This document shows, one piece after another, positions 2,450 through 18,879 of a stretch of DNA of 21,697 bases. Position 1 is the first letter of the stretch. Each line of letters begins with the position of its first letter. The DNA is from a virus, in IMG/VR virus record IMGVR_UViG_3300042373_000587, positions 1 through 21,697 of that record. The stretch is one strand, 5' to 3'. The translations under genes and the position numbers were made by a program. The notes below the pieces were generated by a model. That model saw only the letters and a list, made by a program, of their open reading frames with translations. It ran no database searches and was not told the origin of the DNA.

Positions 2450-2481
2450 GCCGGAGGTTCTCTAAATAGGGGACCTCCGGC
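2450..2481 (+). terminator. Terminator-like hairpin after capsid gene
   Basis: GCCGGAGGT at 2450-2458 pairs perfectly with ACCTCCGGC at 2473-2481. Adding one G-T and one C-G pair makes an 11-bp stem with a 10-base loop. The tail is only moderately T-rich (ACATCTCTTT), so it probably attenuates or protects the 3' end of the capsid mRNA rather than stopping all transcription. Confidence 0.6.
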
Positions 2482-2679: not shown

Positions 2680-2721
2680 GGCACCCTGTAGCCTAAAAAC
2701 TACAGGGTGCCTTTTCTCTTT
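2680..2721 (+). terminator. Strong intrinsic terminator closing the capsid unit
   Basis: A perfect 12-bp stem (GGCACCCTGTAG at 2680-2691 with CTACAGGGTGCC at 2700-2711) has an 8-base A-rich loop and is followed by TTTTCTCTTT. This is a textbook Rho-independent terminator separating the capsid unit from the lysis block. Confidence 0.9.
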
Positions 2722-3947: not shown

Positions 3948-4255
3948 AAGGAATGATCCCACTGCCCGACGGCATCGCCCTACCGGAAGACGCTTCGACC
4001 AAACCCTTTAGCCTTAGTGGTATGTTCCTGCTCCGTGGGGACAAACTGATGGCTCTTGAACTTGACGGAAAGCCTGTACCTTGCGGTGAGTATGAGGAGG
4101 AAGAGGGTGAAGAAGAGGAAGAAGGCGGTGAGGAAAAAGAACACGGCTGCTGTGGAGCATACAAGGAAGGCGAGATGTGCAAGGACTGCCCTAAACAAGA
4201 AGGCGGGTTCCTTGTTGCTATTGAGCGAGCCATGAAACCCTCAAAACGTAGTTGA
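3944..4255 (+). CDS. Acidic small protein B (103 aa) with Cys cluster
   Basis: ATG 3944 overlaps the endolysin stop (ATGA). The 103 residues repeat the plan of the 78-residue protein at 2782: IPLPDGIALPED, a beta-like LMALELDGKPVP, a Glu-rich tract (about residues 50-65), and a C-terminal FLVAIERAMKP helix. It adds a cysteine cluster, HGCCGAYKEGEMCKDCP, absent from protein A, which could bind a metal or form disulfides. Its TGA stop lies inside the -35 box of the 4252 promoter. ATG 3953 is an alternative start; 3944 is preferred for the coupling overlap. Function unknown; retention of two diverged copies around the lysis genes suggests a conserved role. Confidence 0.65.
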   Translation: MKGMIPLPDGIALPEDASTKPFSLSGMFLLRGDKLMALELDGKPVPCGEYEEEEGEEEEEGGEEKEHGCCGAYKEGEMCKDCPKQEGGFLVAIERAMKPSKRS

Positions 4256-4280
4256 CAAAGCACTTAACACTGCCTATCCT
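4252..4280 (+). promoter_or_regulatory. Sigma70-type promoter P1, probably leaderless start
   Basis: TTGACA at 4252-4257, a 17-base spacer and TATCCT at 4275-4280. Transcription would begin about seven bases later, at or next to the GTG start codon at 4288, giving a leaderless or near-leaderless mRNA for the first tail-fibre block. One of four promoters with the same layout. Confidence 0.72.
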
Positions 4281-4287
4281 GTAGGCC

Positions 4288-4620
4288 GTGAGCGCAGCAA
4301 ACTACGATCTCTCCATCTCTTGCGGCGAGGACTTCAACTTCACGTTGCGAGTCCTTGACGCCTTTGACGATCCAATCAATTTTACTGGATCTAGTTACGT
4401 CGCGGAGATCCGCGAGGAACACAAGAAGCCGCTTATTGCAGCATTTGCAGTAACATCTTTGGGCGACGGCACACTCAAGTTCGCCTTAACAGACACCCAA
4501 ACAAAGCTCATTAGCCCCACTCGAAAGTACAAGTGGGACTTCTTTTGGACCCAATCTGGTATCACAACTAAACTCCTTTACGGCAGCGTGACTGCTGTAT
4601 CCAACATCAGTAACTTGTAA
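4288..4620 (+). CDS. Small Ig-like tail-fibre adaptor/baseplate protein, copy 1
   Basis: A 110-residue all-beta protein starting with GTG. The GTG start is supported by the paralogue at 9531: SAANYDLSI here, LAANYDITI there. The rest follows a plan common in short phage proteins: G-x-x-F-x-F-T-L near the N-terminus, P-I-N-F-T-G, then a Y-x-W-D strand and LLYGSVTA near the end. This resembles BppU-type N-terminal or Ig-like domains of baseplate and fibre proteins. It directly precedes a fibre gene and overlaps it (TAATG at 4618-4622), so it is probably an adaptor or attachment partner for that fibre. Length matches a single domain. Confidence 0.6.
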   Translation: MSAANYDLSISCGEDFNFTLRVLDAFDDPINFTGSSYVAEIREEHKKPLIAAFAVTSLGDGTLKFALTDTQTKLISPTRKYKWDFFWTQSGITTKLLYGSVTAVSNISNL

Positions 4621-6104
4621 TGGCCTCTAACGAAACATCGAAATATAAGTTGTCTGTAGTTGAGGGCACTGAATTAAAGCTGTCTCTCAACGGCGCTCAA
4701 GGACCAATCGGACCAGCCAACACGCTGTCGATTGGTACTGTCACGACCGCCGAAACTGGTGTGCCAGCAGCGGCTAGTATTACTGGTTCCAGCCCGACGC
4801 AGACGCTTAACCTGACTTTGCCGAAAGGAAATACAGGCACAGGCGCTGTTGTTATGGTTGGCTCAACTACAACTGGCGCTGCTGGTAGTTCTGCCTCCGT
4901 CACCAATTCTGGTACGAGTAGTGCGGCTGTCTTAAACTTTACTATTCCGCGTGGCAACACTGGAAATACGGGCGCAACCGGTCCAGCTAATACTCTTTCG
5001 ATTGGCACTGTCGGAACTGGCGTAACGCCATCCGTTACTATTACTGGTGCAAGCCCCAACCAGACCCTTAACTTTGTACTCCAAAAAGGTGATAAAGGCG
5101 ATACAGGCGATACTGGTCCCATCGGACCAACTGGCGCGTCGTCGAGTGTGTTTCCTTATTTTGCCAGAACAACTTCGACCAGTGGCGACCCATCCGTAAC
5201 ATTCATTACGTGGAACCAATCGACTCAAGTTAATGCTACATTCCTAAATATTAATCATATTGGATCTGATGGTAATGACTACGATGTATTCCTTGCTTTA
5301 ATTAAACAGAATGACTTTGTAATTGTTCAAGCGCAAGGAGACTCCGATAAGTTTCAAAAGTTTCTAGTTACTGGTGCACCAACTATTATATCAAATAGTT
5401 ATGTTCGGATTCCAGTAACTAATGATTCTTTCGGAACCAGCCCAACAAACTTTACACATAACGATCCCGTTCTTTTCATTATCCAGTCCATCGGCCCTAC
5501 TGGCCCGACTGGACCATCTAATACACTCTCCATCGGAACTGTAACTGCCGGAGGAATTGGTGTTGCTTCTGCCACGATTACTGGTACTTCGCCAAACCAG
5601 ACGCTGAATCTGGTTATACCTACTGGTGCAACTGGCGCTACAGGAAATACTGGTACAGCAGCTACTATCACTGTTGGCTCCGTTGCAACTGGTGCGGCTG
5701 GCAGTTCTGTAACGATCAACAATAGCGGAACAAGTGCCGCAGCTGTTTTCGATTTCTCTATTCCGAAAGGCGATACTGGAGAAACTGGTCCGATTGGCCC
5801 TTCGATTGAGTCGCTCATCATCAACGAAACTACGACGGCGCGCACGCTCTCATTGACGGACACTAATCAGTACATCCGTTGTACAAACGTCTCTCAGACA
5901 TTTATCACAGTGCCGCCGGAATCCGCAGTCGCATGGACCGAGGGCGCAGTCGTCTATTTCCGCCGCGACTCTACTGCTGGCGCAATTAGCCTGACCGCTG
6001 GTTCCGGTGTCACAATCAACAACGGCAGCATCGCGCCAACTATTCCAGTCGATCAGAACTTCGCTCTCAAGAAAGTAGGAACGAACATTTGGGATCTCAT
6101 CTAA
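4620..6104 (+). CDS. Collagen-like repeat tail fibre protein
   Basis: A 494-residue fibre. The N-terminal 25 residues (KYKLSVVEGTELKLSL) likely anchor it. Then follow alternating beta modules of the pattern NTLSIGTV...ITG-x-SPxQTLNLxLPKG and AAGSSASVTNSGT...FxIPRG, separated by collagen-like Gly-X-Y tracts (GDKGDTGDTGPIGPTG, GPTGPTGPS, GATGATGNTG, GDTGETGPIGP). Such Gly-X-Y stretches form trimeric shafts in phage fibres. A non-repetitive block at about residues 175-285 interrupts the shaft and could be a knob. The C-terminal ~95 residues form a distinct beta domain, probably a receptor-binding tip. It overlaps the adaptor gene upstream and abuts the next fibre gene (TAAATG). Thr/Gly/Ala-rich composition reflects the repeats. 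Confidence 0.85.
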   Translation: MASNETSKYKLSVVEGTELKLSLNGAQGPIGPANTLSIGTVTTAETGVPAAASITGSSPTQTLNLTLPKGNTGTGAVVMVGSTTTGAAGSSASVTNSGTSSAAVLNFTIPRGNTGNTGATGPANTLSIGTVGTGVTPSVTITGASPNQTLNFVLQKGDKGDTGDTGPIGPTGASSSVFPYFARTTSTSGDPSVTFITWNQSTQVNATFLNINHIGSDGNDYDVFLALIKQNDFVIVQAQGDSDKFQKFLVTGAPTIISNSYVRIPVTNDSFGTSPTNFTHNDPVLFIIQSIGPTGPTGPSNTLSIGTVTAGGIGVASATITGTSPNQTLNLVIPTGATGATGNTGTAATITVGSVATGAAGSSVTINNSGTSAAAVFDFSIPKGDTGETGPIGPSIESLIINETTTARTLSLTDTNQYIRCTNVSQTFITVPPESAVAWTEGAVVYFRRDSTAGAISLTAGSGVTINNGSIAPTIPVDQNFALKKVGTNIWDLI

Positions 6105-7718
6105 ATGGATCTGAAGCACATCATCCCGCAACAGCGTAGGCGGTCCGCAGGACCTGCTTTGGATATTCAGTATTCGGTAGATAGGACGAACGTCCCGCGT
6201 GTCGGACCGACTCCGACATTTACACGCGCAAGCTCAGGCACGTTCGTGAATGAGAACCGACGTATTGTCGGAAAAACGACCAGCACCACTTCACTCAATC
6301 CGGCATCCGTTCCGGTCGGCGGTGTCGCTGTATTCGCTGTCCCATCCGGCAGCGTTGTCGGTTGGCTCAATGACTCCGTCGTCTCCGTCATGGTTGACTC
6401 GGACGGCAACGATCAGGTTGACGCGCAAGCACACGTCACCGGAACCCTGCTTCATAAGACCAATACCGCGATCACCCTTCTCGTCACCAGCAAAGTCGGC
6501 ACGGCAACAGTATCGAGTTGGTTCGTGTCTTATCGTGGGCAGCGCATCACGCACGATCCGGTTACAGGCAGGTGTTTGGGTACATTGATCGAGCAAACAA
6601 GGACGAATTTATTACTCCAAAGTCAGAATTTCGGAACAACTTGGACTGATGATATTGCGCGAATATCCATCTCCATCGACCAGACAGTAAGTCCGTCCGA
6701 AATAAACGACGCCGACAAAATATCAGAAAATACTACAATTTCAGAAAGAAGGATATGTATTCAAAGTTTAAACTTTACATCTGGAACGACGTATACATTT
6801 TCTTGCTATGTTAAAGCCGCTGAAAGAGAAATAGTTCAATTGGGGTTTGGCACAAGTATTGGGGCTCAGTATCAAAATTTTATTGTTGGTGGCGTTAATG
6901 CGGGCTCATTAGGGGGCGGATCTGGAACAACCGCCTCTATTCAAACGTTAAAGAATGGTTGGTACAGATGTACTGCTACTATCACAGCTTCTGCAACTGG
7001 TTCCAGTCAAGTAACTGTCGGACCTAATATTTCATCAACGGCACTAAGATGGGCTCCGTATGTCGGCACAATCGGTAGCGGAATCTTTGTTTGGGGCGCT
7101 CAACTTGAAACCTCACTAAACGCAACCAGCTACATTCCGACAACCGCTGTTAGCACAGCGCGAGCGCAAGACTTGCATACGATTACGGGAGCCAACTTCT
7201 CGTACATGTACAACCAGAGCAGCGGGACTGTTTTCTGCTCTCATGAGGTTTCTCCGTTTAATGGCACTCACGGAGTCTACGGGATTACAGCTTCAATTAG
7301 AGCAGCAGCAGGTATTACTGCGGTCAGAAATAATTCTACATTGCTGGTTACGGGAGTGTATAGTTCGCCTCCGAACTTTGATAGTCAGGCGTCTTTTGCT
7401 TCTAGTGTGTCAGCATCTGGTCAAACAAAAAGTGCGATTGCCGTTCGCACAGATGATTTTGCTTACTCCGCCAACGGATCAATTTCAACGGATAGTTCAG
7501 GCACACTAAATCCGATCATGGATAGATTTGTGATTGGGGCGACAGGCAATTTATCAGGCCCGCAAGTCGGTAGTAACATATTTTCCGCGATCCTCTACTA
7601 TCGTGATCGCCTACCAAACGCCGAACTCCAAACCCTAACCTCTACCGTATCAGAAACTATCGTTTACAACGGCGTTGCCATCTGGTACAACGGTGAAGGA
7701 CTCATTGAAACATCATAA
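6105..7718 (+). CDS. Tail fibre/spike protein with CBM-like and LamG-like regions
   Basis: A 537-residue protein with a modular tail-fibre layout. Near the N-terminus is TFTRASSGTFVNENRRI, later THDPVTGRCLGTLIEQTRTN with LLLQSQNF (about residues 150-175), familiar from phage tail proteins. A carbohydrate-binding-module-like beta region (about 175-360) ends in the typical FVWGAQLE...SYIPT pattern. A concanavalin/LamG-like region (about 370-537) ends in DRFVIGATGN and a YYRDRLPNAELQTLTS motif. Between residues about 57 and 145 lies an extra Val/Thr-rich beta segment where related proteins usually join directly, so it looks like an inserted domain. Likely role: binding host surface glycans. It begins one base after the preceding stop codon. 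Confidence 0.78.
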   Translation: MDLKHIIPQQRRRSAGPALDIQYSVDRTNVPRVGPTPTFTRASSGTFVNENRRIVGKTTSTTSLNPASVPVGGVAVFAVPSGSVVGWLNDSVVSVMVDSDGNDQVDAQAHVTGTLLHKTNTAITLLVTSKVGTATVSSWFVSYRGQRITHDPVTGRCLGTLIEQTRTNLLLQSQNFGTTWTDDIARISISIDQTVSPSEINDADKISENTTISERRICIQSLNFTSGTTYTFSCYVKAAEREIVQLGFGTSIGAQYQNFIVGGVNAGSLGGGSGTTASIQTLKNGWYRCTATITASATGSSQVTVGPNISSTALRWAPYVGTIGSGIFVWGAQLETSLNATSYIPTTAVSTARAQDLHTITGANFSYMYNQSSGTVFCSHEVSPFNGTHGVYGITASIRAAAGITAVRNNSTLLVTGVYSSPPNFDSQASFASSVSASGQTKSAIAVRTDDFAYSANGSISTDSSGTLNPIMDRFVIGATGNLSGPQVGSNIFSAILYYRDRLPNAELQTLTSTVSETIVYNGVAIWYNGEGLIETS

Positions 7719-7730
7719 ACAAATACTACT

Positions 7731-8621
7731 ATGCCAATCGACTTAGGAAACGCACCAACTGGAACGCCGCCAACGGCTGAAGAGAAGACACAGATCCTCT
7801 CCGCTTTGGGTATTCCAGACGTATCGACCCGCTCCGGCGCAGAGAACCTCTCAAACAAGACCCTTGTCAGTCCGGCCTTTAGTGGCACGGCGACTGGTCA
7901 GTTGGAGCTTCCGACGCAAGCGTCGTCGTCAGCTAATAGCGTTATGACGCGAAATCTACATGAGCAAGAGTTTCACCAAAACTTTTGGGCTCCGATCAAT
8001 TGGGTCACGCCTACTGCGACAGCAAATGCTAGTGGATCGGTATCTGGACAGAATGCTGTTTTGGGTGTGACGGTTTCTGCAGTAACTGGCAACAACGTAT
8101 ATACATCAGATTTTGACAGCATCTTTGCTAACTCTGGTTCCGGTTCTAACAATCGTTTTAGTGGTGCGAATTTTACCATGTGCTTTGACGCGCAATGCAA
8201 CGTATTCAGTAACAATGAGATTAGATTACTTTATGGTGTGACGAATTCTACCACATCACTAGCCGCCGCTGGTTTCGCCGTAGTATGGACTTCCAGCACG
8301 ACATTAAAACTTCAGATTCACAATGGAACTACGCTGCAAGAATCGCCATCTCTAACAATACCATCTCTTTCGATCAACAACTTTCATAGATATATGGTCG
8401 TTTGGAGTGGATCAACTCTAACTCTGTACAACAAGCAATGGGCTCCAACTGGAGTCCAGACCCGTTGGTCATTGATTGGCTCGTTTACCGGAACTTCTTT
8501 ACCGACGACCACTTCGGGGACTAAGATTGTTGCTTCAAGTGTCGCAATCGGGGCGGGTGCAAATAATTCAAACTTCCGAATCCGCAGCTTTTATGTAGCC
8601 CCATTTGTGGCAACTATCTAA
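7731..8621 (+). CDS. Tail fibre-associated protein with lectin-like C-terminal region
   Basis: A 296-residue protein. The first ~45 residues (MPIDLGNAPTGTPPTAEEK then ILSALGI and NLSNKTL) carry the short helix and Asn-Lys-Thr motif seen at the start or in linkers of many phage fibre proteins. Residues about 75-296 are Ser/Thr/Asn-rich beta strands with aromatic residues (FHRYMVVWSGSTLTLY, FRIRSFYVAPF), suggesting a jelly-roll carbohydrate-binding domain. It is the third fibre gene in a row, probably a side fibre or tip. The start ATG 7731 has no Shine-Dalgarno sequence but shares TACTACT-ATG with the capsid gene. Confidence 0.65.
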   Translation: MPIDLGNAPTGTPPTAEEKTQILSALGIPDVSTRSGAENLSNKTLVSPAFSGTATGQLELPTQASSSANSVMTRNLHEQEFHQNFWAPINWVTPTATANASGSVSGQNAVLGVTVSAVTGNNVYTSDFDSIFANSGSGSNNRFSGANFTMCFDAQCNVFSNNEIRLLYGVTNSTTSLAAAGFAVVWTSSTTLKLQIHNGTTLQESPSLTIPSLSINNFHRYMVVWSGSTLTLYNKQWAPTGVQTRWSLIGSFTGTSLPTTTSGTKIVASSVAIGAGANNSNFRIRSFYVAPFVATI

Positions 8622-8626
8622 ACCCG

Positions 8627-8950
8627 ATGACCGACTACCTCCTCAAGTTCCCGTCCAGAGACGTCGCCATCCAGTTTGGCGCGTCTACTGGCCTTGCCGT
8701 GCAGGATGACGACGGCAACTGGTACCCGAATCTTGCATCCCACGAACATGCACTTTTGGAGATCGGGCCCCACAACGGAGAAAATTATTGGATTTTGTTC
8801 CGCGATCTGGTCGGTATCCCCATCCCAACTGGCGGCGAAGCGTTCATCTATTGGGCATCCGACTGGAGCGTTCTGGACGAAGACGGTCTGGAAACCCACA
8901 TCCCACGGCCTGTAAATGATCCCGATGTCCCGAACGTCTTTTGGGCTTAA
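8627..8950 (+). CDS. Hypothetical phage protein (107 aa) in fibre block
   Basis: A 107-residue acidic protein rich in Trp, Asp and Pro (NYWILFRDLVGIPIP, FIYWASDWSVLDEDG). There is no membrane segment. The start, MTDYLLKFPSRDVAIQFG, resembles short proteins often found among phage fibre genes, but I cannot assign a family. It lies five bases after the upstream fibre gene and ends four bases before a new promoter (P2), so it is the last gene of the first tail-fibre unit. A small tail accessory or chaperone for fibre folding is possible. Confidence 0.55.
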   Translation: MTDYLLKFPSRDVAIQFGASTGLAVQDDDGNWYPNLASHEHALLEIGPHNGENYWILFRDLVGIPIPTGGEAFIYWASDWSVLDEDGLETHIPRPVNDPDVPNVFWA

Positions 8951-8953
8951 TCC

Positions 8954-8982
8954 TTGACCCCGAACCCCAAACCCTGTAGACT
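8954..8982 (+). promoter_or_regulatory. Sigma70-type promoter P2, probably leaderless start
   Basis: TTGACC at 8954-8959, a 17-base spacer and TAGACT at 8977-8982. ATG 8989 lies six bases after the -10 box, so transcription should start at or within a base or two of the start codon. It drives the tandem ~85-residue genes and probably the second fibre cassette. Confidence 0.7.
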
Positions 8983-8988
8983 CCTATT

Positions 8989-9246
8989 ATGACTGACACA
9001 ATCCTCAAACAAAATGCCGGACGCGGTGGTGCTGAAATTGTGAAGGGCCCCATTCAAATTCCAGCGGGCAACTATTGTGCCATTGAATTCCTCACTAGCG
9101 GCGGTTTTTTGGTTGCTATGAACGCGCCCCTTTTGGAGGGGAACCAACTGAGCCTAAGCCTTCCTGCTGGATTTCGTATTGACACCCCAATTATTGGGGG
9201 CTCCGGCATTGTCAATGCAACTGCAATTCTATATCGATCTGTATAA
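8989..9246 (+). CDS. Small beta protein, tandem copy 1 (85 aa)
   Basis: An 85-residue protein beginning MTDTILKQNAGRGGAEIV, with predicted beta strands and no membrane segment. It is a clear paralogue of the next gene, matching at MTDTILKQ-x-AGRGGA, PAGxYC, the NAPLL segment, and the IIGGxGxxxxTAIxY C-terminus. It is transcribed directly from P2, likely as a leaderless message. Position between fibre genes suggests a small tail or tip component. The family is not recognised. Confidence 0.62.
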   Translation: MTDTILKQNAGRGGAEIVKGPIQIPAGNYCAIEFLTSGGFLVAMNAPLLEGNQLSLSLPAGFRIDTPIIGGSGIVNATAILYRSV

Positions 9247-9263
9247 CTTAAAGTTTTTATCTT

Positions 9264-9524
9264 ATGACTGACACCATCCTTAAACAAGAAGCCGGACGCG
9301 GCGGCGCCGTAATTGTGAGTAACGGAACACCTCCGGCTGGCGAATACTGTAGACTTCATTGGGTTTCCTCCGGCACAATTACGACGGCCCTAAACGCACC
9401 GCTCCTTACCGGAACCCAAACCGGAATCACGTATCCTGCAAACAGCAGCATTAAGACCACGATCATTGGCGGGACTGGCGTAATTACCGGAACCGCTATC
9501 TTCTACAAAGCAATTATCGACTAA
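9264..9524 (+). CDS. Small beta protein, tandem copy 2 (86 aa)
   Basis: An 86-residue paralogue of the upstream gene, 17 bases after its stop. The first eight residues are identical (MTDTILKQ) and AGRGGA, YC, NAPLL and the C-terminal IIGGTGVITGTAIFY pattern are kept, while the middle has diverged. That points to an old tandem duplication with retained scaffold and altered surface. No promoter is seen in front, so it should be co-transcribed from P2. The start is fixed by the conserved MTDTILKQ. Confidence 0.62.
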   Translation: MTDTILKQEAGRGGAVIVSNGTPPAGEYCRLHWVSSGTITTALNAPLLTGTQTGITYPANSSIKTTIIGGTGVITGTAIFYKAIID

Positions 9525-9530
9525 GCTAAA

Positions 9531-9908
9531 ATGCTCGCCGCCAACTACGATATCACGATCGACCGTGCAGCTGAATACAGCTTCGTTCTGACCATCCAGA
9601 ACCAGTTGCAGCAGCCGATTGATTTGGACCCGCCAGCGGCGGCAGCTTACGGTTTCTTTGCCGACATCCGCGATGCCGTTACGAAGAAAGAAGTGGTGTC
9701 ATTTACGCCGACCATTCTTGACGATGGCAACAACGGTCAGGTAGCCTTCAACCTTTCAGAGGCGAACACGCTTTCGTTGAAGCCTTCCGGTAGCTACGAG
9801 TACGATATCTTCATGCAACGCGCCGCCACTATGGAACGCTTGCTTTACGGCTCCGTTACGGTGCGGGCCAACATCACCAAAGGAGCACCAGTAGACCCAA
9901 TTAGTTAA
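9531..9908 (+). CDS. Small Ig-like tail-fibre adaptor/baseplate protein, copy 2
   Basis: A 125-residue paralogue of the 4288 protein. Shared landmarks in order: AANYDITID at the start, YSFVLTIQ, QPIDLDP, FFADIRD, NNGQVAFNLSEANTL, YEYDIFMQ and RLLYGSVTVRANI. It carries an extra Pro/Ala loop (DPPAAAAYG) and a longer C-terminal tail (KGAPVDPIS). As with copy 1, a repeat-rich fibre gene follows immediately, here after four bases. The repeat of this adaptor-then-fibre order argues that the small protein works with its fibre, for example as an attachment domain. The BppU/Ig-like assignment is from pattern only. Confidence 0.6.
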   Translation: MLAANYDITIDRAAEYSFVLTIQNQLQQPIDLDPPAAAAYGFFADIRDAVTKKEVVSFTPTILDDGNNGQVAFNLSEANTLSLKPSGSYEYDIFMQRAATMERLLYGSVTVRANITKGAPVDPIS

Positions 9909-9912
9909 GACC

Positions 9913-12162
9913 ATGCCCTCAGACACCTACATCTTGACCGTTTCAGAAGCCGGAGTTTCGGTTCCGTCCACCCACGCCAGCACCCACATTACTGGCGGCA
10001 GCGACGTGATCCCAACTGCGACATCGAGCACTAGCGGCCTGATGAGCGCAGCCATTTTTAACCAGCACGTTACTAACACCGCTAAAGTCTCCAACGCCAA
10101 CCACACTGGCGACGTCACTGATGCTTCCGGTGTCCTTACTGTTAACAAGATTAACGGCGTAGCTCTATCTTCTTTCCCAAACAACACAGTTTTAAAAACT
10201 ACAACTGGTGGTATTATTGCGGCTGCTACCGCTAACGACTACCCAACGCTAAACCAGTCTACAACTGGCAACGCACTTACGGCGACAACCGCTACAACCG
10301 CTACAAATATCGCTGGCGGTGCTATCGGTTCAGTGCCATACCAAACTGGATCTGGAGCCACAGCACTACTCGCAGCCGGAACCGCTGGATATGTTCTCAA
10401 GTCGAACGGATCAGCCGCTCCTTCATGGGCTCCCGTCGATCTTTCTGCTGGAATCTCTGGCAGTCTTCCTGTCGCTTCTGGCGGCACTGGCGCAGCTACC
10501 TTCACTGCTGGTGTCTTGAAGGCGAACGGAACGAGTTCGTTTACCACTGTCGCTGCTCCAGCTGGAGATCTTGTTGGAACATCTGATTCGCAGACGCTTA
10601 CCAATAAAACGTTTGGTAGTGGTGTTACTTTTAGCACAGCTATTCCAGTTACTTCCGGCGGCACTGGTGCGGCTACCTTCACTGCTGGTATCTTAAAGGC
10701 GAACGGAACAAGTTCATTCACAACTGTGACTGCTCCAGATGGAGCTATTGTTGGGACAACTGATACCCAAACCTTAACGAATAAGACTCTTACTTCTCCG
10801 ACAATTTCTGGTGGCACAATTTCTTCGCTGTCATCCCCTATCGCAGTTGCTTCCGGCGGTACTGGCGCAGCTACCCTTACTGGTTATGTAAAAGGAACAG
10901 GCACTACAGCAATGACTGCTGCTGCTACAGTTCCGGTTGCTGATCTTACTGGAACTCTACCAGTCGCAAACGGCGGTACTGGCGTAGCTACCCTTACTGG
11001 TTATGTAAAAGGAACAGGCGCTACAGCAATGACTGCTGCTGCTACAGTTCCGGTTGCTGATCTTACTGGAACTCTACCAGTCGCAAACGGCGGTACTGGC
11101 GTAACTACTTCGACTGGTTCTGGCGCAAACGTACTTGCAACTTCACCGACTTTAGTTACTCCTGTTTTAGGCACACCAGCAGCTGGCAGTATCCTCACTA
11201 ACTGTACTGGTTTGCCTCTTACTGCTGGCGTAACAGGAATACTGCCAATCGCCAATGGAGGCACAGCGAATGACGGCACTGCCGTAACAGCACTTACATT
11301 TGACACACTCAAATTTAAAACATCTAGCCAATCAACTGGCGCTCTTTCGGAGGGCCAGCTTCGTTGGAACGGGATCGACAAGACACTGGACCTTAAAATG
11401 TCTGGCACTTCTGTCACGCAACAAGTTGGTCAAGAGGTGCTAATGCGGGCAACGGCCTCTCAGAATATTCTAAACGGACAAGTAGTCTATATCGACGGTT
11501 CTTTTGATGGGATGCCCGAAGTTGGTTTGGCTTCCAATAATTCGTTGTCGGCTAAGTCGGTTGTCGGACTCGCTACAGAAAATATAAATATTGGTGAATC
11601 TGGTTATGTTACCTTAACTGGATTGGTGCGCGGCTTAAACCTAACTGGATATACCATCGGACAAGAAGTATGGCTATCAACTAGCGGTGGGATCACGGCA
11701 ACTGAGCCAACGTATCCTGCACACAAAGTACGTGTTGGATACGTTTCTCACGTAGACGCCTCTACAGGTTCTATTTACGTAACCCCAAAATATTTTGAGA
11801 ACGGTCTAGTAAATGGCACTGGCAAGATTGGTTATATTAATGGTTCTGGCGGTATTGTTACACAGAATACAAGCAAGACAACTGGCGTTACCCTTAACAC
11901 AACAAACGGGCAGATTACGATGAATAGTGCCGCCCTCTCAGCGAACACAACTGTTTCGTTTACTCTTACAAACTCCAAAATAGAAGCTGGTGATGTTCTC
12001 ATCCTGAACCATATTTCCGGCGGCACTAACTTCGCATCATATGTCCTGAACGCTAGATCAGCTGCTGGTTCTGCGACAATTGATGTCCGTAATGTGACTA
12101 GTTCATCACTGTCAGAAGCAATCGTAATCGCCTTCGCTGTAATCAAATCTGTAACAATTTAA
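9913..12162 (+). CDS. Long repeat tail fibre with conserved C-terminal tip (749 aa)
   Basis: A 749-residue fibre. The short N-terminus (YILTVSEAGVSV) resembles that of the collagen-like fibre, followed by a THASTHITGGSD start block common in phage fibres. Residues about 180-450 are a shaft of repeated LPVANGGTGVATLTG and VTSGGTGAATFTAG modules with TQTLTNKT linkers. Two 117-bp DNA copies here differ at one base. Residues about 500-630 form a beta region containing VVYIDGS and GQEVWLSTSGG. The final ~100 residues (TSKTTGVTLN, GQITMNSAALSANTTVSFTL, SLSEAIVIAFAVIKS) match a widespread phage fibre tip. Function: host recognition, as a trimeric fibre. It is transcribed behind its adaptor gene. Confidence 0.86.
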   Translation: MPSDTYILTVSEAGVSVPSTHASTHITGGSDVIPTATSSTSGLMSAAIFNQHVTNTAKVSNANHTGDVTDASGVLTVNKINGVALSSFPNNTVLKTTTGGIIAAATANDYPTLNQSTTGNALTATTATTATNIAGGAIGSVPYQTGSGATALLAAGTAGYVLKSNGSAAPSWAPVDLSAGISGSLPVASGGTGAATFTAGVLKANGTSSFTTVAAPAGDLVGTSDSQTLTNKTFGSGVTFSTAIPVTSGGTGAATFTAGILKANGTSSFTTVTAPDGAIVGTTDTQTLTNKTLTSPTISGGTISSLSSPIAVASGGTGAATLTGYVKGTGTTAMTAAATVPVADLTGTLPVANGGTGVATLTGYVKGTGATAMTAAATVPVADLTGTLPVANGGTGVTTSTGSGANVLATSPTLVTPVLGTPAAGSILTNCTGLPLTAGVTGILPIANGGTANDGTAVTALTFDTLKFKTSSQSTGALSEGQLRWNGIDKTLDLKMSGTSVTQQVGQEVLMRATASQNILNGQVVYIDGSFDGMPEVGLASNNSLSAKSVVGLATENINIGESGYVTLTGLVRGLNLTGYTIGQEVWLSTSGGITATEPTYPAHKVRVGYVSHVDASTGSIYVTPKYFENGLVNGTGKIGYINGSGGIVTQNTSKTTGVTLNTTNGQITMNSAALSANTTVSFTLTNSKIEAGDVLILNHISGGTNFASYVLNARSAAGSATIDVRNVTSSSLSEAIVIAFAVIKSVTI
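10480..10775 (+). repeat. Diverged 177-bp (59-residue) tandem repeat in fibre gene
   Basis: GGCGGCACTGG recurs at 10480 and 10657, a period of 177 bases. The encoded unit runs SGGTGAATFTAG, LKANGTSSFTTV and on to TQTLTNKT. Copies have drifted at many silent sites, so this duplication is older than the 117-bp one. Confidence 0.75.
10870..11103 (+). repeat. 117-bp near-perfect tandem duplication in fibre gene
   Basis: Copy 1 (10870-10986) and copy 2 (10987-11103) are identical except for A at 10903 against G at 11020, changing Thr to Ala. The unit encodes 39 residues and keeps frame, so copy number can change without breaking the gene. Confidence 0.9.
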
Positions 12163-12167
12163 CGCAT

Positions 12168-13325
12168 ATGCCATTTGAAATAGCATCTCTATCATCTAGT
12201 GATACAACGATAAAAGTCTTGCGGAATAAGCCATTTAACATAGCTTTGAGTAGTTTTTTATCCATATCCTCTGATGAGGCGTTTGGTTCTCCGAAATTTT
12301 CAAGTGGCCTCTTTTATTCGGTAAGATCAAATTCTTGGGATCAATTTAACAGAGAGGGTTATGTGGTAGTTAGTCCGTCTCTTAGTTCGAACAGTACTCC
12401 CAACACAACTCGGGAGTTGTACCTGTGGAGTTCTCTTTTTGCATCTATTACATGCGATAATCTACCGTCCGGTGTTAATTTTTTTAAAGAACGAAACTCA
12501 ATATATTATTATTGCGACCCATTTGATTTATTAATTAATTCATACCCATCTAATACTAGACTTTATGGAACTATAAACACTTCTGGAACATATGAATTTT
12601 ATTTAAAAGCAAACATACTCTTTGTACCAAATCAGTATTATAAAGTTACAGCGGACTATCTTAGTTACGGCACCTTTTCCCTACCTCATGACTCATATTC
12701 ACAATTTGTAGCTTCCCTAGTGCCTGAACCTTCTGGTAATGTAGCACAACCATTACAAATTGGAGAAGAAAGAGATAGAGACATAATTCGAGTCTCTAGT
12801 GATACCATTAAAGTAACTTTAGTTGTGGAAGACCCACCTGATGAAGTTAATTCTAACCCTAATCCTAACCCCAACCTTAACCCGACTCAAGCAACTACTG
12901 GATCGAGTACAAGCGAAGTCGAGTTGCATGTGGTACCAATCACGACTTCAACCCTTACTTCGTCCGCTAGATCTATTACAGTACCGTTTACCGCAACTCG
13001 AATAGCGACTACTTCTGCACCCACACAGAGCTTCATGGTTAAATTCGGCGGAGTTAATGTGATGGACGCGGCGTTTGTTACCACTTCAATTGCAGCTACG
13101 TCTTGTGTAATTTCTGCAAAAATATCAAAAACATCTTCGTCAATGTTTAGATTTGATATTTCAATAAACAGCAGCATTGATGGTGTACAACAACAATCTA
13201 TAACACGTACTAAATCTGTTTCTATTTCAAGTTTCTCAAACTCAAATCTAAGTTTACACGCAACCAATGCTGCTGGATCAAGCGCACCTATTATCTCTAA
13301 TTACGGAAATATAATTAACGTCTAA
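12168..13325 (+). CDS. Hypothetical AT-rich virion protein with Asn-Pro linker (385 aa)
   Basis: A 385-residue Ser/Asn/Thr-rich protein, with visibly more A+T than the fibre gene before it. Two regions are joined by a flexible linker. The N-terminal ~230 residues have aromatic-rich strands and end in IKVTLVVEDPPDE. Then comes an Asn-Pro repeat (NPNPNPNLNP, about residues 230-240) and a C-terminal ~140-residue beta region beginning STSEVELHVVP. No membrane or catalytic motif is seen. Position right after a fibre gene and no obvious enzyme suggest a fibre-associated or decoration protein. Composition suggests recent acquisition. The linker DNA mimics a telomeric repeat only by chance of codon choice. 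Confidence 0.55.
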   Translation: MPFEIASLSSSDTTIKVLRNKPFNIALSSFLSISSDEAFGSPKFSSGLFYSVRSNSWDQFNREGYVVVSPSLSSNSTPNTTRELYLWSSLFASITCDNLPSGVNFFKERNSIYYYCDPFDLLINSYPSNTRLYGTINTSGTYEFYLKANILFVPNQYYKVTADYLSYGTFSLPHDSYSQFVASLVPEPSGNVAQPLQIGEERDRDIIRVSSDTIKVTLVVEDPPDEVNSNPNPNPNLNPTQATTGSSTSEVELHVVPITTSTLTSSARSITVPFTATRIATTSAPTQSFMVKFGGVNVMDAAFVTTSIAATSCVISAKISKTSSSMFRFDISINSSIDGVQQQSITRTKSVSISSFSNSNLSLHATNAAGSSAPIISNYGNIINV

Positions 13326-13342
13326 TAGACTAGAATTAAAAT

Positions 13343-15973
13343 ATGGCAGTCTCACAATTACCACAAGCCCCGTATAGGCAAGACCGCAAGATCTTCCCAA
13401 CCCCAATTATTGGGGATGTCTTGTTCAGTGAAGTACGTGACTGCAATCGTGGCAACCCGTTCCCTGAATACGGAACCCCGTATCCTAACGCCAACAAATG
13501 GCCTAACCATAAACTGGTTTATATTAAGCCAGTTGATATCGAGCGCAACGAGATCTTTGAGTTCTTTTATGCAGCAGAGCGCGAGAATCAGGATCTCTAC
13601 AACTTCGCTTTCGGACTACGGAGTATTGGCAATAGGGAGTTCCGCACAGTTACTCGTACCTATGTCACGCTCCGTGAGAACTTCAAGCCGACAGATATCG
13701 AGTTTGGTACTCCGATGCTGAACGTACCGGAAGATAAGTTTGAAGGAGTCAATTACGTTTTCTACGACAAGGAACAGCAGAACACGCAGCAGGAAGAACT
13801 GAATGCTCTGTTCGTTATTGAGGCCCACAGCTACGTGGAAGAGGCTGTGCTCGACGAAGTACTGACGCTTTCTACTGAGAGGCAAGATCCTTTGCCGCCT
13901 AAGTTCCGTGTGCTGTCGCCCACTACTACGACAGATGAATTGGCAGAAGGATCGGTCGAAACGCCAGTACTTACAGGCGACCAGCTCGCAGCGACTGAGG
14001 ACCAACTCAATACGAATCTCAAACGCAAGCGTACCGTTTCTCGCTCGTCAGCGGAGAACACCAGCTCGTTGAGTGGTAAACAAGTCACTAATGATCTTCA
14101 AGTCGCTAATGTAGTAGAGACCATTGTGCCAGATGGCACAACGATTACTACATCCGCTCTTACTGTTGATGGCTCCGTCGAATCATTGGGCAACGGACAA
14201 AGCATTCAGCGTGTCATAACTGCACCGGAACTGTTCGCCGCAGAATCGTATTCTGCTGAAAGGCCGGACGTTGTTCCGGAAAAGTTCCGTACTGCCATTC
14301 CGACAACTACGGAAGAGCGGAGTATAGAAGGAATAGCCGAAACGCCAGTTCTTGAAACTGGTGATATTTCTGCTACAGAACAACAGCAAAATGTTCACGT
14401 TAAGAGGACTAGAAAAACTAGACGCGATACAGCGGCTCTTCCTAAATCTCTCACTCAAAAAGCCACCACTAACGATAAGCAACTTGCTACCGTTACTGAA
14501 ACCCTTCAGGTTGGTGATACCGCCACACAGCCGTCGGCGCTTATTGATATCCAAAGTGAGGCTTTGGGCGACGGTACATATGTAGTTCGCAAAGTCGAAG
14601 TGCCTGAACTTTTTGAAGAAAAGGCTTTCGGTGTTGAAAAGTTTGACAATATCCCAGAAAAATTCAGGGCTGAAGTTCCAACGAAAACCCAAACCACAAA
14701 TAAGATTGGGCAAGTACCGGAACCCCAACTCGCAACTGGAGAACTTTCAAGAACTACACAGCAGCTGAATGAGTTTGTCTATAAAGAGCAAATCACTAAG
14801 CGTGACGTGACAAGCAATGTCGCACTTCCCGAAGTCCAGAGAGCTTATGTCGAAGGAACAATTGCCAAAGTTAATGAGAAACTGTCAACAAGCCCGACGA
14901 TTGAATCTGGTCTACTGATTTCTGAATCCGCCGCCACTCCTATTGGAGATGGTAAATTCATTGTTCAAACGGTTAAAGTTAATGAATGGCCACAACTTAC
15001 AAGCTCTGAGTGGGACAACGAGCTTCAGGTACAGGTGCAAAAAACGGAACAATTTGTTGCTCCGTCTTCGAGTTTTACTGAAGTAAATACTTCTTACCGC
15101 GCAGTAAATAAAGATAGATCTCTGAAGGTTACGGAAACTGAGCCTACAGCGGCTCTTTCTTCATACGTAATGAGTTTCCCGATTCAGGTTGATGTCCGAC
15201 TTCCAGATGTGCTTAAATCAATTTCTGTAGTATGGGCAGAAGACTTAGCTGAAGGCAATTACGACTCTCAGTGGCAGGGCTCTAGTAGCGGTACGTCGTA
15301 TGGTTTAACGGGCAGTGAGAGTGCCTCTTCTGAATCTTCAGCCAGCATTAAGCCAGAACTTATAATCGACATTGAACGTCCATGGGGCGCAGATGTGTCC
15401 GCAACAGCGTATTACTTCTTCCTAAAAGGAAACAATAATGTAATAAGTGAATCAGCATTTTTAAGTAAAGTTTCCCGAATAGCTGGAGCAGCACAACGCT
15501 GGCCCACCTTTAAACCAGTATCTCATACTATTGTACTAACTGGTGGCTCTGCTCAAGTTCAAGCTAAAGTCAATTGGAGCGCAGCTAGATCTGCATCTAG
15601 CTCATCCAGTACAAGCGAAAAAACTACAGGACAAGGAACTAGCTACGGCGTTGGCACATCTTTAAACGCCGTAACAATTTCCCCAACAATTCATGGGGCG
15701 ATTACAATTAGTGGCGCAGAAGCCAAAACAAAATTAGTCACGTCTAATTGTAATTCGGGAACAGGTCCAGTAAGCAACTTTCCTTTCGTCCTAACGGCAG
15801 CAGCAGCAAGTCACACCTTAAACGCGGATGTAAATCCTAAAACATTAGCGGCCACAACCCCTACTGTAATTCCAACATCAGGAAAATACATCCTTAAATC
15901 AGAAGTTGTGCCCTACAAATGGGGCTGGGCCCGCTGTTCTGCTGTAGTTCTTGACGCATCAGTATTAGCATAA
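13343..15973 (+). CDS. Large modular virion protein with three ~126-residue repeats (876 aa)
   Basis: An 876-residue protein. The N-terminal ~185 residues form a distinct domain rich in aromatic and charged residues (GNPFPEYGTPYP, IFEFFYAAERENQDLYNF). Three tandem repeats follow, marked by P-x-KFR at residues 187, 314 and 440, each continuing into a Thr-rich strand, an ATEDQLN / ATEQQQN / TTQQLN helix and a basic R-K-x-R segment, then a LGNGQ / LGDGT / IGDGK turn and a PEL motif. A C-terminal Ser-rich beta domain (about 640-876) ends KYILKSEVVPYKWGWAR. No enzyme motif or membrane segment is seen. Length and repeats suggest an extended virion component, such as a baseplate, tail shaft or internal protein. 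The next promoter's -35 lies in its last codons. Confidence 0.62.
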   Translation: MAVSQLPQAPYRQDRKIFPTPIIGDVLFSEVRDCNRGNPFPEYGTPYPNANKWPNHKLVYIKPVDIERNEIFEFFYAAERENQDLYNFAFGLRSIGNREFRTVTRTYVTLRENFKPTDIEFGTPMLNVPEDKFEGVNYVFYDKEQQNTQQEELNALFVIEAHSYVEEAVLDEVLTLSTERQDPLPPKFRVLSPTTTTDELAEGSVETPVLTGDQLAATEDQLNTNLKRKRTVSRSSAENTSSLSGKQVTNDLQVANVVETIVPDGTTITTSALTVDGSVESLGNGQSIQRVITAPELFAAESYSAERPDVVPEKFRTAIPTTTEERSIEGIAETPVLETGDISATEQQQNVHVKRTRKTRRDTAALPKSLTQKATTNDKQLATVTETLQVGDTATQPSALIDIQSEALGDGTYVVRKVEVPELFEEKAFGVEKFDNIPEKFRAEVPTKTQTTNKIGQVPEPQLATGELSRTTQQLNEFVYKEQITKRDVTSNVALPEVQRAYVEGTIAKVNEKLSTSPTIESGLLISESAATPIGDGKFIVQTVKVNEWPQLTSSEWDNELQVQVQKTEQFVAPSSSFTEVNTSYRAVNKDRSLKVTETEPTAALSSYVMSFPIQVDVRLPDVLKSISVVWAEDLAEGNYDSQWQGSSSGTSYGLTGSESASSESSASIKPELIIDIERPWGADVSATAYYFFLKGNNNVISESAFLSKVSRIAGAAQRWPTFKPVSHTIVLTGGSAQVQAKVNWSAARSASSSSSTSEKTTGQGTSYGVGTSLNAVTISPTIHGAITISGAEAKTKLVTSNCNSGTGPVSNFPFVLTAAAASHTLNADVNPKTLAATTPTVIPTSGKYILKSEVVPYKWGWARCSAVVLDASVLA
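13895..15050 (+). repeat. Three protein-level repeats (~378 bp each) inside the large virion gene
   Basis: The marker Lys codons of P-x-KFR lie at 13901, 14282 and 14660, spaced 381 and 378 bases. DNA identity between copies is low but the order of short motifs is kept, indicating old internal triplication. The boundaries given are approximate. Confidence 0.65.
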
Positions 15974-15979
15974 TACTCT
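15951..15979 (+). promoter_or_regulatory. Sigma70-type promoter P3, probably leaderless start
   Basis: TTGACG at 15951-15956, a 17-base spacer and TACTCT at 15974-15979, with ATG 15986 six bases further on. The -35 box is embedded in the last codons of the 876-residue gene (Leu-Asp-Ala), and the spacer carries its stop. Predicted transcription start coincides with the start codon. Confidence 0.65.
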
Positions 15980-15985
15980 AAAAAT

Positions 15986-16540
15986 ATGGCTGAAGAAGAT
16001 AAGGACGATTTCCGTGCGAAAGAAAGCGCCGCACGTGAAGAGAGGCGTGCAAAAGAAAATGCTTCGCGTGAAGAGAGGCGTGCAAAAGAGAACGCATCGC
16101 GTGAGGATAGGAAGGCGAAGGAAAGCGCATCGCGCGAAAGGAGTCAGGGAAAGGCCCCAAAGGGAACATCGGAAAGAAAGGCCGCAAGGGAGGAAGCTAA
16201 CAAGTACGACATCGACACAAAAGGGATGTCTACTAGAGAGATTAAAGGGGCGGTGTCCGAAGCCAAAGCGGTCGAGGAAGACATGATGAAGTTTATTGAG
16301 AAGAGTCTCGGAAACTTTACAGCCAAAAAAGGCGGGGAAGTCGCCCCGACAAATACACCAGCTACGACTACTAGCAGAATCACAGAAGACAAACCATCTC
16401 CATTAACACCAGCTGGGGGGACTCCAAAAGGTAGGGGTGGTGGTGGTTCTAGTATACCGGAGCCACCTTCTAGTGGGATATATGTGCTCGGCTCTGTCGA
16501 TGGCGAGATTGAGTGGTTTGAAACTGATAGCTGTAATTAA
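15986..16540 (+). CDS. Charged hendecad-repeat protein with phage C-terminal motif (184 aa)
   Basis: A 184-residue protein. Residues about 10-53 are four 11-residue units of the type RAKENASREER, extremely rich in Arg, Lys and Glu, predicted to form one long charged helix or right-handed coiled coil. A further basic helical part to residue ~110 follows, then a Pro/Thr/Gly linker (TPAGGTPKGRGGGGSS) and a short C-terminal strand pair, YVLGSVDGEIEWFETDSC. That last motif resembles C-termini of phage virion proteins. No enzyme motif is present. A tail-attached rod, tether or DNA-binding internal protein is possible. It is the first gene behind promoter P3, with no Shine-Dalgarno sequence. Confidence 0.6.
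   Translation: MAEEDKDDFRAKESAAREERRAKENASREERRAKENASREDRKAKESASRERSQGKAPKGTSERKAAREEANKYDIDTKGMSTREIKGAVSEAKAVEEDMMKFIEKSLGNFTAKKGGEVAPTNTPATTTSRITEDKPSPLTPAGGTPKGRGGGGSSIPEPPSSGIYVLGSVDGEIEWFETDSCN
16013..16144 (+). repeat. Four 33-bp in-frame tandem units
   Basis: Units at 16013-16045, 16046-16078, 16079-16111 and 16112-16144 encode 11 residues each. Units 1-3 begin CGTGC and end with GAGAGG or GATAGG; unit 4 has diverged. Any gain or loss of a unit keeps the reading frame. Confidence 0.85.
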
Positions 16541-16541
16541 A

Positions 16542-17306
16542 ATGGCAAATCCAAAAATACCAATCAATAGTTATTATGGGGGCGATATAAATATTGTCCA
16601 AATTAAAAGTCGTGCGGGGGAGTATAAGATACCGTGTAGGTGTTGTATTTCTTGTTATAGCGGGTCTCCTAGTGGGCCTAATGTATTTGAAATCACAGAA
16701 GATGAGTTTTACGACATCGCCACTGCAACTAGTTACACAGCAACTATAAGTGGTTCGGTGAGCGCAAAATACATTAGATATCTTAGCGGCCAATTCTGCC
16801 AACTCGGACAGTATACAAATTTTAAAGGCGAGGGAGTTTCCGAAGCCCTCATCAATTTGAGTGAGACGCGAATATCAAGTGGTTGTCAGCTAAACTACCT
16901 AAACTTAAGCTATGTACAAGACACATGGCACGAAAACTGGACAGTTATTGAGGGTCCCCCGTGTGATCCCCCTGTAGAGGAGACAAGCGGAAACGACTAC
17001 TCTCAAGACATTATAAAGTTTGGATTTCTATCATCTCTTTGGAGCGCAGATGATAAATTTTATTTGCAGCTAGACTTTCCTAACAATACTTATCAAAGTA
17101 GGGGTGTTGTAGATGGCACATTTTTGTTTTTACCTGACTACCAACAACCACCTTCAGGATATATTCAATCAAATGGGGGTTGTTCTTTTTCTATAAACGG
17201 GAATGTTGTGAATCTTATAGCTTATGAATATGTCACACCATATGGCCCGCCCCCAGAATTTAGACCTATTTTTACAGCAAATCTTTCTTTTGAGGTTAAT
17301 ATGTAG
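16542..17306 (+). CDS. Hypothetical AT-rich Cys-containing phage protein (254 aa)
   Basis: A 254-residue protein starting at ATG 16542, two bases after the preceding stop. An in-frame extension upstream to 16437 exists but overlaps the previous gene for no reason. An N-terminal cluster, CRCCISCYSG (about residues 32-41), could bind a metal or form disulfides, and further Cys occur at about 86, 115, 142 and 215. The rest is beta-rich with many Tyr and Ser and several Pro loops (GPPCDPPVEE, PYGPPPEFRP). No membrane segment is seen. It is AT-richer than the structural genes upstream. The family is not recognised. An exposed virion protein is the best guess from position behind the hendecad-repeat gene. 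Confidence 0.55.
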   Translation: MANPKIPINSYYGGDINIVQIKSRAGEYKIPCRCCISCYSGSPSGPNVFEITEDEFYDIATATSYTATISGSVSAKYIRYLSGQFCQLGQYTNFKGEGVSEALINLSETRISSGCQLNYLNLSYVQDTWHENWTVIEGPPCDPPVEETSGNDYSQDIIKFGFLSSLWSADDKFYLQLDFPNNTYQSRGVVDGTFLFLPDYQQPPSGYIQSNGGCSFSINGNVVNLIAYEYVTPYGPPPEFRPIFTANLSFEVNM

Positions 17307-17336
17307 TAGTTTTTGGTTTAACATAACAATAATCTA

Positions 17337-17759
17337 ATGAATTGCCAATATAGAAATATATCTTATCCTATTTGCGGATTGGGGTTATATAAAGGAATGC
17401 CAAGTATAGGAATGTGTAATTTGTGTATAGAGAAAGAAGAAAATACTATTAAACACGCGCAGACCGTGTTAGATAAAAAAAATATCAATATCCGGCTAAC
17501 GAATCAAGTTGAAGCTCAAGTCGAAACCCAAGTTGAAGCACAAGTTAAGTCTCTAGCAAAAGCAATAACTAAATGGGGCTCGTCCGGATTTCAAATAACT
17601 GACCCATCTGTATTTAATCAAAGAATGACAACCTGCAAAGGATGCGAGTTTTGGGACTCAGAGGCACTCAACGGCACTGGACGCTGCCGCAAATGTGGCT
17701 GTTCCACATGGGCCAAACTAAGGATGGCCACTGAAAAGTGCCCTATTGACAAGTGGTAA
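17337..17759 (+). CDS. Small Cys-rich zinc-ribbon-like phage protein (140 aa)
   Basis: A 140-residue protein with cysteines at both ends. The N-terminus has C3, C13, C27 and C30; the C-terminal ~45 residues carry TTCKGCEFWD, then GRCRKCGCSTWAK and EKCPIDKW. This C-x2-C ... C-x2-C-x-C ... CP-x2-KW order recurs in small phage proteins and is consistent with one or two zinc sites. The middle contains a Val-Glu-x-Gln repeat (VEAQVETQVEAQV, about residues 58-70), likely a short coiled coil. A run of eight A at 17475-17482 is a site where sequencing errors or slippage could shift frame, though the frame reads through cleanly. Function unknown. Confidence 0.6.
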   Translation: MNCQYRNISYPICGLGLYKGMPSIGMCNLCIEKEENTIKHAQTVLDKKNINIRLTNQVEAQVETQVEAQVKSLAKAITKWGSSGFQITDPSVFNQRMTTCKGCEFWDSEALNGTGRCRKCGCSTWAKLRMATEKCPIDKW

Positions 17760-17767
17760 AGAATTAC

Positions 17768-17796
17768 TTGACAACTGATAGCCGACAACCTACCCT
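17768..17796 (+). promoter_or_regulatory. Sigma70-type promoter P4
   Basis: TTGACA at 17768-17773, a 17-base spacer and TACCCT at 17791-17796. ATG 17807 lies ten bases after the -10 box, so the mRNA would have at most a few leader bases. It begins in the short gap after the zinc-ribbon-like gene and would drive the small basic protein, the neck candidate and the nuclease-like gene. Confidence 0.7.
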
Positions 17797-17806
17797 CTGA
17801 CCTGTA

Positions 17807-17935
17807 ATGAAAACTAAGACCAAAAAGCAAGTAGCCTACCTGCTCAGTAAGGTTAGCCCCCTCAGTAATAAGGAGCAGGGCAAACTGAAGGGTGAGCTTC
17901 ACAGCGGTGAAGTCAAAACCAAACCCAAAAAGTAA
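17807..17935 (+). CDS. Small basic protein (42 aa)
   Basis: ATG 17807 to TAA 17935 encodes 42 residues, Lys-rich at both ends (MKTKTKKQVAYLLSK and VKTKPKK) around a short helical core (SNKEQGKLKGELHSGE). There is no membrane segment. The strong promoter ten bases upstream and the TAATG overlap with the next gene support it as real despite its size. Small Lys-rich proteins with GKL and LHSG-type cores are common in phage late regions. A DNA-packaging-associated or minor head protein is conceivable, but the function is not known. Confidence 0.62.
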   Translation: MKTKTKKQVAYLLSKVSPLSNKEQGKLKGELHSGEVKTKPKK

Positions 17936-18879
17936 TGCCCGCCACTACGGTAAATCAGCTGGTTCCGATGCTCAGTCAGTACATCGAACCAGACGGCGAG
18001 TTCAAGACAAGCCTTAATCAGGTCTTGTCTCGTATCTACAACATGGGGACTTACCGTGATCTTACTATCCAGTACAGTCTGCCTGTTGTTGACAATTGCG
18101 TTACGCTGCCGGACGAAGCTGATTCGGTACTTCACACCATTGTGGATAACCAGCCAGTGCCCGTCCGTTCTTTGTGGCACGACTTCAAATCGGTCGGCAT
18201 GGGGGTCGGCGCAGCTGACCTTACATGGGGTCTGGTTGACGCTGGTTTTCACCCGTTGAAGCGGTTGATTACTACCGCTACCGATACTTTGCACATTGTT
18301 CCGTCCGACCAGTCACCGACGAAAACCAATTTCAATCCTAATGACGGCGGCGAGATCGTGGTCACAGCGACAGATGGCGATAAGATTTATCAGTCAACCA
18401 CCGATACCGTATCTGATAACGACGTCCCTCTCACGTTCGCAGAGGACATTAACGCTGTGATTAGTATCCGCTTCGACGGTCTTACGGATGCCTACGACAT
18501 CCGAACTACTGCGGGTAATTCCGATACCACAATTGCCACAGTCGGACCGGATTCCGGCGTCACTCGCTATCGTAGGTTCAGACTGAACCGTTCGACCAAT
18601 GACGAGACTGTCGTTCATGTTCTCTGCAAACGAGCCTTCCAGCCTGTGCGCTCCGATAACGACATCGTGTATGTCGGCAATGTCGGTGCTTTGAAGCACG
18701 GTCTTATGGGCCGCTTGATGGAGGACAACGCTGATATCGAGCGTGCTGAATACCACTGGAACAAGTGCATGCAGCTAATGGAAGAGGAAGCCGCCACCTC
18801 AAGGGGCGCTGCCATTCCGAGGCTGAATGTTGATCCATACGGTACTGGCAACCTTAATCGTATTTACCAACTGTACTAA
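17935..18879 (+). CDS. Neck/head-tail adaptor protein candidate
   Basis: A 314-residue protein. N-terminal helices (VNQLVPMLSQYIEPDG and LNQVLSRIYNMG) lead into DLTIQYSLPV, VTLPDEADSVLHTI and PVPVRSLWHDF, a pattern I associate with podovirus-type tail tube A or neck adaptor proteins. A central beta part (about residues 130-220) follows. The C-terminal ~80 residues form a helical bundle with FQPVRSDNDIVYVGNVGALK and AEYHWNKCMQLMEEEA, typical of such adaptors. Its job would be to join the portal to the tail. Translation is coupled to the 42-residue gene by TAATG and to the nuclease-like gene by another TAATG at 18877-18881. The assignment is by pattern, not by a diagnostic motif. Confidence 0.55.
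   Translation: MPATTVNQLVPMLSQYIEPDGEFKTSLNQVLSRIYNMGTYRDLTIQYSLPVVDNCVTLPDEADSVLHTIVDNQPVPVRSLWHDFKSVGMGVGAADLTWGLVDAGFHPLKRLITTATDTLHIVPSDQSPTKTNFNPNDGGEIVVTATDGDKIYQSTTDTVSDNDVPLTFAEDINAVISIRFDGLTDAYDIRTTAGNSDTTIATVGPDSGVTRYRRFRLNRSTNDETVVHVLCKRAFQPVRSDNDIVYVGNVGALKHGLMGRLMEDNADIERAEYHWNKCMQLMEEEAATSRGAAIPRLNVDPYGTGNLNRIYQLY

Follow-up and report, generated by a model that had tools for sequence, protein, structure and literature searches.

Probable sigma-70-type promoters adjoining the start codons of structural genes in a phage family lacking Shine-Dalgarno sequences

We describe four sites in the genome of an uncultured phage that are probably conserved host-type sigma-70 promoters of structural (late) genes. 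Their mRNAs would be leaderless or nearly so, and transcription would be re-initiated from them within the late block. The four sites belong to a promoter class, TTGAC-N16/17-TANNNT, in which 5-10 bases, most commonly 6, separate the -10 box from an ATG or GTG downstream. The motif itself, its enrichment, position, conservation and strand restriction, and the absence of Shine-Dalgarno (SD) sequences were all established computationally.

The four sites and their genomic setting

The window, by which we mean the whole 21,697-nucleotide stretch analysed, corresponds to positions 34833-56529 of the 66,279-bp virus contig G011, which ends in 127-base terminal repeats. One strand of the contig carries terminase, a 3852-aa protein, portal, capsid and tail genes, the opposite strand replication genes (DNA polymerase A, helicase, resolvase). 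The phage family is uncultured and comes from water and soil. No cultured relatives were found by capsid, portal or giant protein, and matches to cultured phages, all remote, concern terminase and DNA polymerase only. In the literature searched, whose coverage was incomplete, neither the family nor late leaderless promoters in it were reported.

The product of the gene at 1147..2442 (+ strand), a putative major capsid protein, served as query for relatives. Each of the 15 best PDB matches of its low-confidence model is a phage capsid or virion structure, which gives weak support to its identity as a phage capsid protein. The 3852-aa protein (G011:6010-17568, locus L125) lies outside the window; it has no Pfam or PHROG matches, a search with its first 833 aa found no relatives in the phage collection, and it is perhaps an ejected virion protein. 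A single-subunit RNA polymerase within it was considered and rejected, a non-exhaustive motif search being negative and Pfam and PHROG matches absent.

The pattern TTGACV-N17-TANNCT has exactly four matches in the window, at 4252, 8954, 15951 and 17768, all on the + strand with none on the - strand, and no further match elsewhere in the contig. These are the same four sites as in the preliminary description, which had put the start codon 6-10 bases past the -10 box; on recounting, the gaps are 7 (GTG 4288), 6 (ATG 8989), 6 (ATG 15986) and 10 (ATG 17807).

Promoter 1 (4252..4280, +) consists of a -35 box TTGACA (4252-4257), a 17-bp spacer and a -10 box TATCCT (4275-4280). The TGA stop of the preceding gene (4253-4255) falls within the -35, and the GTG 7 bases after the -10 opens a PHROG 1084 gene of the structural region (4288..4620, +), the N-terminus of which could be aligned with orthologues. 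Promoter 2 (8954..8982, +; -35 TTGACC 8954-8959, -10 TAGACT 8977-8982) has a 17-bp spacer of the CCTG(A/T)A(C/T)-like 7-base repeat type and precedes a small structural-region gene (8989..9246, +), whose ATG is 6 bases past the -10. Promoter 3 (15951..15979, +; -35 TTGACG 15951-15956, -10 TACTCT 15974-15979) is the weakest. Its -35 lies within the final codons (LDA) of gene 13343-15973 and its -10 just past the stop of that gene; the gene 3' of it (15986..16540, +) begins with an ATG 6 bases past the -10 and has no full-length orthologue among the relatives gathered via the capsid protein. Promoter 4 (17768..17796, +; -35 TTGACA 17768-17773, 17-bp spacer, -10 TACCCT 17791-17796) stands before a 42-aa gene (17807..17935, +) with its ATG 10 bases past the -10 and a predicted leader of about 4 nt; the stop of this gene overlaps the ATG of gene 17935-18879. 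Each site lies at a gene boundary, as the preliminary description said; the overlaps at 4252 and 15951 bear this out.

Several other features of this region were recorded. Genes 4288-4620 and 9531-9908 are paralogous PHROG 1084-type genes of one structural region, and in some relatives a start-adjacent promoter precedes both kinds. A 117-bp repeat (10854-11108; 2.2 copies, 97% identity) lies within the 749-aa tail-like gene 9913-12162, and an in-frame 33-bp repeat (16013-16138; 3.8 copies) codes for a charged repetitive stretch of gene 15986-16540.

Enrichment, conservation and spacer length among relatives

Four matches gathered after the fact might be due to chance. Dinucleotide shuffling of the window yields 0.12 matches of the four-site motif, a flattering figure, as the motif was read off the same four sites. 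A looser sigma-70 rule finds 23 sites in the window, near the shuffled mean of 19.7 and thus without excess, and site 15951 taken alone could be a chance match. Since the motif had been derived from the sites themselves, an independent test was made.

Eighty relatives were gathered through the putative capsid protein, and the motif was counted in them without annotation, an ATG or GTG at 5-10 bases that opens a reading frame of 40 codons or more being taken as an ORF start. In these 80 sequences (2.02 Mb), TTGAC-N17-TANNNT occurs 172 times, 97 times followed by an ORF start 5-10 bases on, and TTGAC-N16-TANNNT 122 times, 49 times with such a start. Controls with wrong spacers, a reversed motif, a flipped -10 or altered hexamers gave few or no matches. 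Start-adjacent sites were found before 27 protein families. With a TTGACA-like -35 and a TANNNT -10 separated by 16-18 bp, the sites are of sigma-70 type in sequence.

A weight matrix was then trained on 74 distinct sites, the lineage of the window being left out. It scores the four sites at 18.3 (4252), 17.4 (8954), 17.2 (15951) and 18.7 (17768); together with one minus-strand site they are the five top scores in the 66-kb contig. Applied to 943 homology-refined starts, the matrix finds 82 matches at gap 4-12, most often at gap 6, whereas shifted ranges yield 13 and 0. In 13 large genomes, the + (structural) strand holds 73 matrix matches, 46 of them start-adjacent, and the - strand 27, of which 3 are start-adjacent; shuffles of these genomes give 35 matches per strand, 1.7 of them start-adjacent. 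The start-adjacent expectation is 0.045 per 21.7 kb and strand, and the probability of four is about 2e-7. Enrichment before start codons in the genome and its relatives, which had been proposed as the check, is thus strong (46 start-adjacent sites for 1.7 expected).

Conservation was examined in non-redundant upstream regions of orthologues picked without requiring the motif. This motif-independent test is unbiased, whereas alignment columns selected by the motif necessarily overstate conservation at TTGAC, TA and T. Upstream of the 4288 orthologues, the start-adjacent motif is present in 16 of 44 regions, compared with at most 2 in shifted ranges. The 8989 orthologues have the strict motif in 9 and the relaxed one in 13 of 21 regions (0-1 when shifted), so that the strict motif is found in under half of the orthologues of both genes. 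For the 17807 orthologues the figure is 8 of 11, with 0 in shifted ranges. The families of 4252 and 17768 have kept the hexamers while their spacers diverged.

At site 15951, the -35 letters coincide with codons of a conserved C-terminal LDA(S) peptide of the upstream gene family, and may be owed to coding constraint. TTGACG persists in some orthologues that have no -10, while G001 and G003 form a start-adjacent promoter there; judged by these sequences, the site is a plausible candidate promoter, only partly conserved. For the set of four as a whole, a chance origin is ruled out by the independent matrix, the relatives, the shuffles and the orthologous positions, which agree with the earlier judgement that such a design is unlikely by chance; we regard the probability left to chance as negligible.

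The preliminary description had also given the spacer as exactly 17 bases. This holds for the four sites and fails as a general rule for the family, where 16 is also common. Within the contig, start-adjacent sites with 16-base spacers occur at 29992, 30577 and 31085; the last precedes the portal GTG, and 37 genomes have such sites before members of the portal family. Given these 16-base spacers in the contig and in the family, the fixed 17 follows from the way the first pattern was chosen. A TTGTCA-N17-TATGTT also stands six bases before a terminase ATG of the contig. The promoter set therefore exceeds four and covers structural genes.

In one promoter subclass the spacer is a degenerate 7-base repeat, CCTG(A/T)A(C/T). 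Such spacers were seen at 8954-8982, G006:13204, G016:15760 and G002:26903 and 27323 (-). Of 31 runs of 3-5 such repeats, 27 are on the minus strand, and several runs stand immediately before early genes.

Absence of Shine-Dalgarno sequences and predicted leaderless translation

An SD-like 5-mer stands before 2.8% of the 945 refined starts (70 families), as compared with 3.8% in a control stretch, as befits leaderless genes. None of the 24 genes of the window has even a 4-base SD match; T7, taken as a control in the same tests, gives 84% (5-mer) and 96% (4-base). The start codons adjoining promoters are ATG in 84 cases, GTG in 25, CTG in 1 and TTG in 0.

Sigma-70 polymerase usually initiates 6-8 bases after the -10 box. 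With a gap of 6 the start codon itself would hold +1, and with a gap of 10 the mRNA would have a leader of about 4 bases. The term leaderless is therefore not exact for every site, gaps of up to 10 leaving a few leader bases. Leaderless or near-leaderless late mRNAs, already suggested in the preliminary description, are predicted by the gap-6 peak together with the absence of SD sequences. In the bacterial leaderless genes described by Zheng et al. (2011, PMC3160421), common in Actinobacteria and Deinococcus-Thermus, a TANNNT box stands some 10-12 bp upstream of the start codon; over the 945 starts TANNNT peaks at gap 5-7, which is the leaderless signal in the sense of these authors.

An ordinary promoter with a leader would look the same if start codons had been mis-called and the true starts lay further downstream. 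The start codons are indeed predicted ones, and for some genes an in-frame ATG or GTG downstream is possible. Yet the proteins of divergent relatives can be aligned from the predicted start onwards, the gap-6 peak is sharp over many families, SD sequences are missing before all of these starts and TTG is absent from the promoter-adjacent start positions. We consider this reading very improbable.

If the four sites are near-leaderless promoters, host sigma-70 polymerase would initiate at or within about 4 bases of the start codon and the first gene would be translated from a leaderless or near-leaderless message. Many internal genes of the window start on or beside the preceding stop, which suggests translational coupling; the genes that follow the first would be translated by such stop-start coupling.

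The promoters would also restart transcription inside the late block, including past two strong terminator-like hairpins 3' of the capsid gene. One, with 14 pairs (2450..2481, +), lies directly 3' of the putative capsid gene, the other, with 12 pairs and a T-rich tail (2680..2711, +), after the next small gene. If these putative terminators work, downstream genes need new promoters, and in this way the hairpins support the idea of a late-gene restart. T7 offers a likeness in its Tphi terminator after capsid gene 10.

Strand restriction, promoter recognition and meaning for the family

Start-adjacent sites are confined largely to the structural strand (46 versus 3 on the other), and at the level of protein families the difference is 10 of 46 versus 0 of 24 (P 0.012). 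This restriction to the strand of the structural genes supports a late set, and from gene content we infer that the set is late. The transcription start, leaderless translation, use of the host polymerase, late timing and the host are all predictions from sequence.

The sites had been proposed to form a regulon read by host polymerase. The sigma-70 hexamers and spacing uphold the second part, while shared control is visible only as strand restriction. A true late regulon might need a phage sigma factor, or a phage activator binding the spacer or flanks. It would explain why the sites keep to the structural strand and early genes are without the motif, and a subclass indeed has the conserved CCTG(A/T)A(C/T) repeat spacer even before non-homologous genes. 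But most spacers are unconserved, as in the 4252 and 17768 families, near-consensus -35 boxes need no activator, and neither a phage RNA polymerase, a sigma factor nor a known activator was found among the subset of proteins scanned. Dependence on a phage factor is thus unlikely in our view, and direct reading by host sigma-70 polymerase is preferred.

Replication genes, on the other strand, show no excess of the TTGAC/TANNNT promoter in the 13 large genomes (G011 included) and have few good sigma-70 matches upstream. Early genes have A-rich, SD-less leaders. The family might thus use two SD-free modes according to phase, late genes with consensus sigma-70 promoters and leaderless messages, early genes with A-rich SD-less leaders and non-consensus promoters; we offer this as a tentative and rather doubtful reading. 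Early phage genes normally carry consensus host promoters, and the two-mode reading, if true, would reverse this usual order.

As the host must translate leaderless messages well, the promoter design itself hints at the host. The capsid gene was met in four metagenome-assembled genomes (Blastopirellula, Verrucomicrobiales, Opitutae and Acidimicrobiaceae), three of which are Planctomycetes or Verrucomicrobia; this could be mis-binning, and wider searches of two phyla, covering 388 and 396 genomes, yielded no further case of the gene. Counted over 96 genomes of Verrucomicrobiota, the promoter followed by an ATG occurs 1011 times at gap 5-8, 739 times at gap 25-28 and 270 times with the pattern reversed. 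Some Verrucomicrobia are described as SD-scarce (PMC10783764). Promoter counts and SD scarcity are consistent with a Verrucomicrobiota host, which we put forward tentatively, as perhaps the right one.

Among phages, leaderless messages are generally regarded as uncommon. The PRM-cI message of lambda is leaderless, its host sigma-70 promoter placing +1 at the AUG; the sites described here share with it a host sigma-70-type promoter at the start codon, although in lambda this concerns a single repressor gene of an SD-using phage. The bacterial genes of Zheng et al. (PMC3160421) are alike in their -10-like box, its equal distance to ATG or GTG and the lack of SD, and differ in that here we deal with a phage family, a strong TTGAC -35 and the structural strand only. 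In Deinococcus-Thermus, -10 boxes adjacent to ORFs were demonstrated by reporters and transcriptomes to act as promoters of leaderless mRNAs (PMC12340547). The likeness is a -10 box adjoining the start codon; there, cellular genes of one phylum are concerned, here phage genes on computational evidence only. Cluster O mycobacteriophages PL1 and PR2 have two divergent SigA promoters predicted to be leaderless (PMC4351075), two promoters in one cluster, whereas here many structural-gene promoters occur in a diverse SD-less family. Leaderless genes as such have thus been documented in bacteria and predicted for some mycobacteriophages; what appears to be new is that an SD-less phage family uses them systematically and in a strand-restricted manner.

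Start-adjacent promoters would improve the calling of start codons in such genomes. The family would offer a natural test of how structural proteins may be abundantly expressed without ribosome-binding sites.
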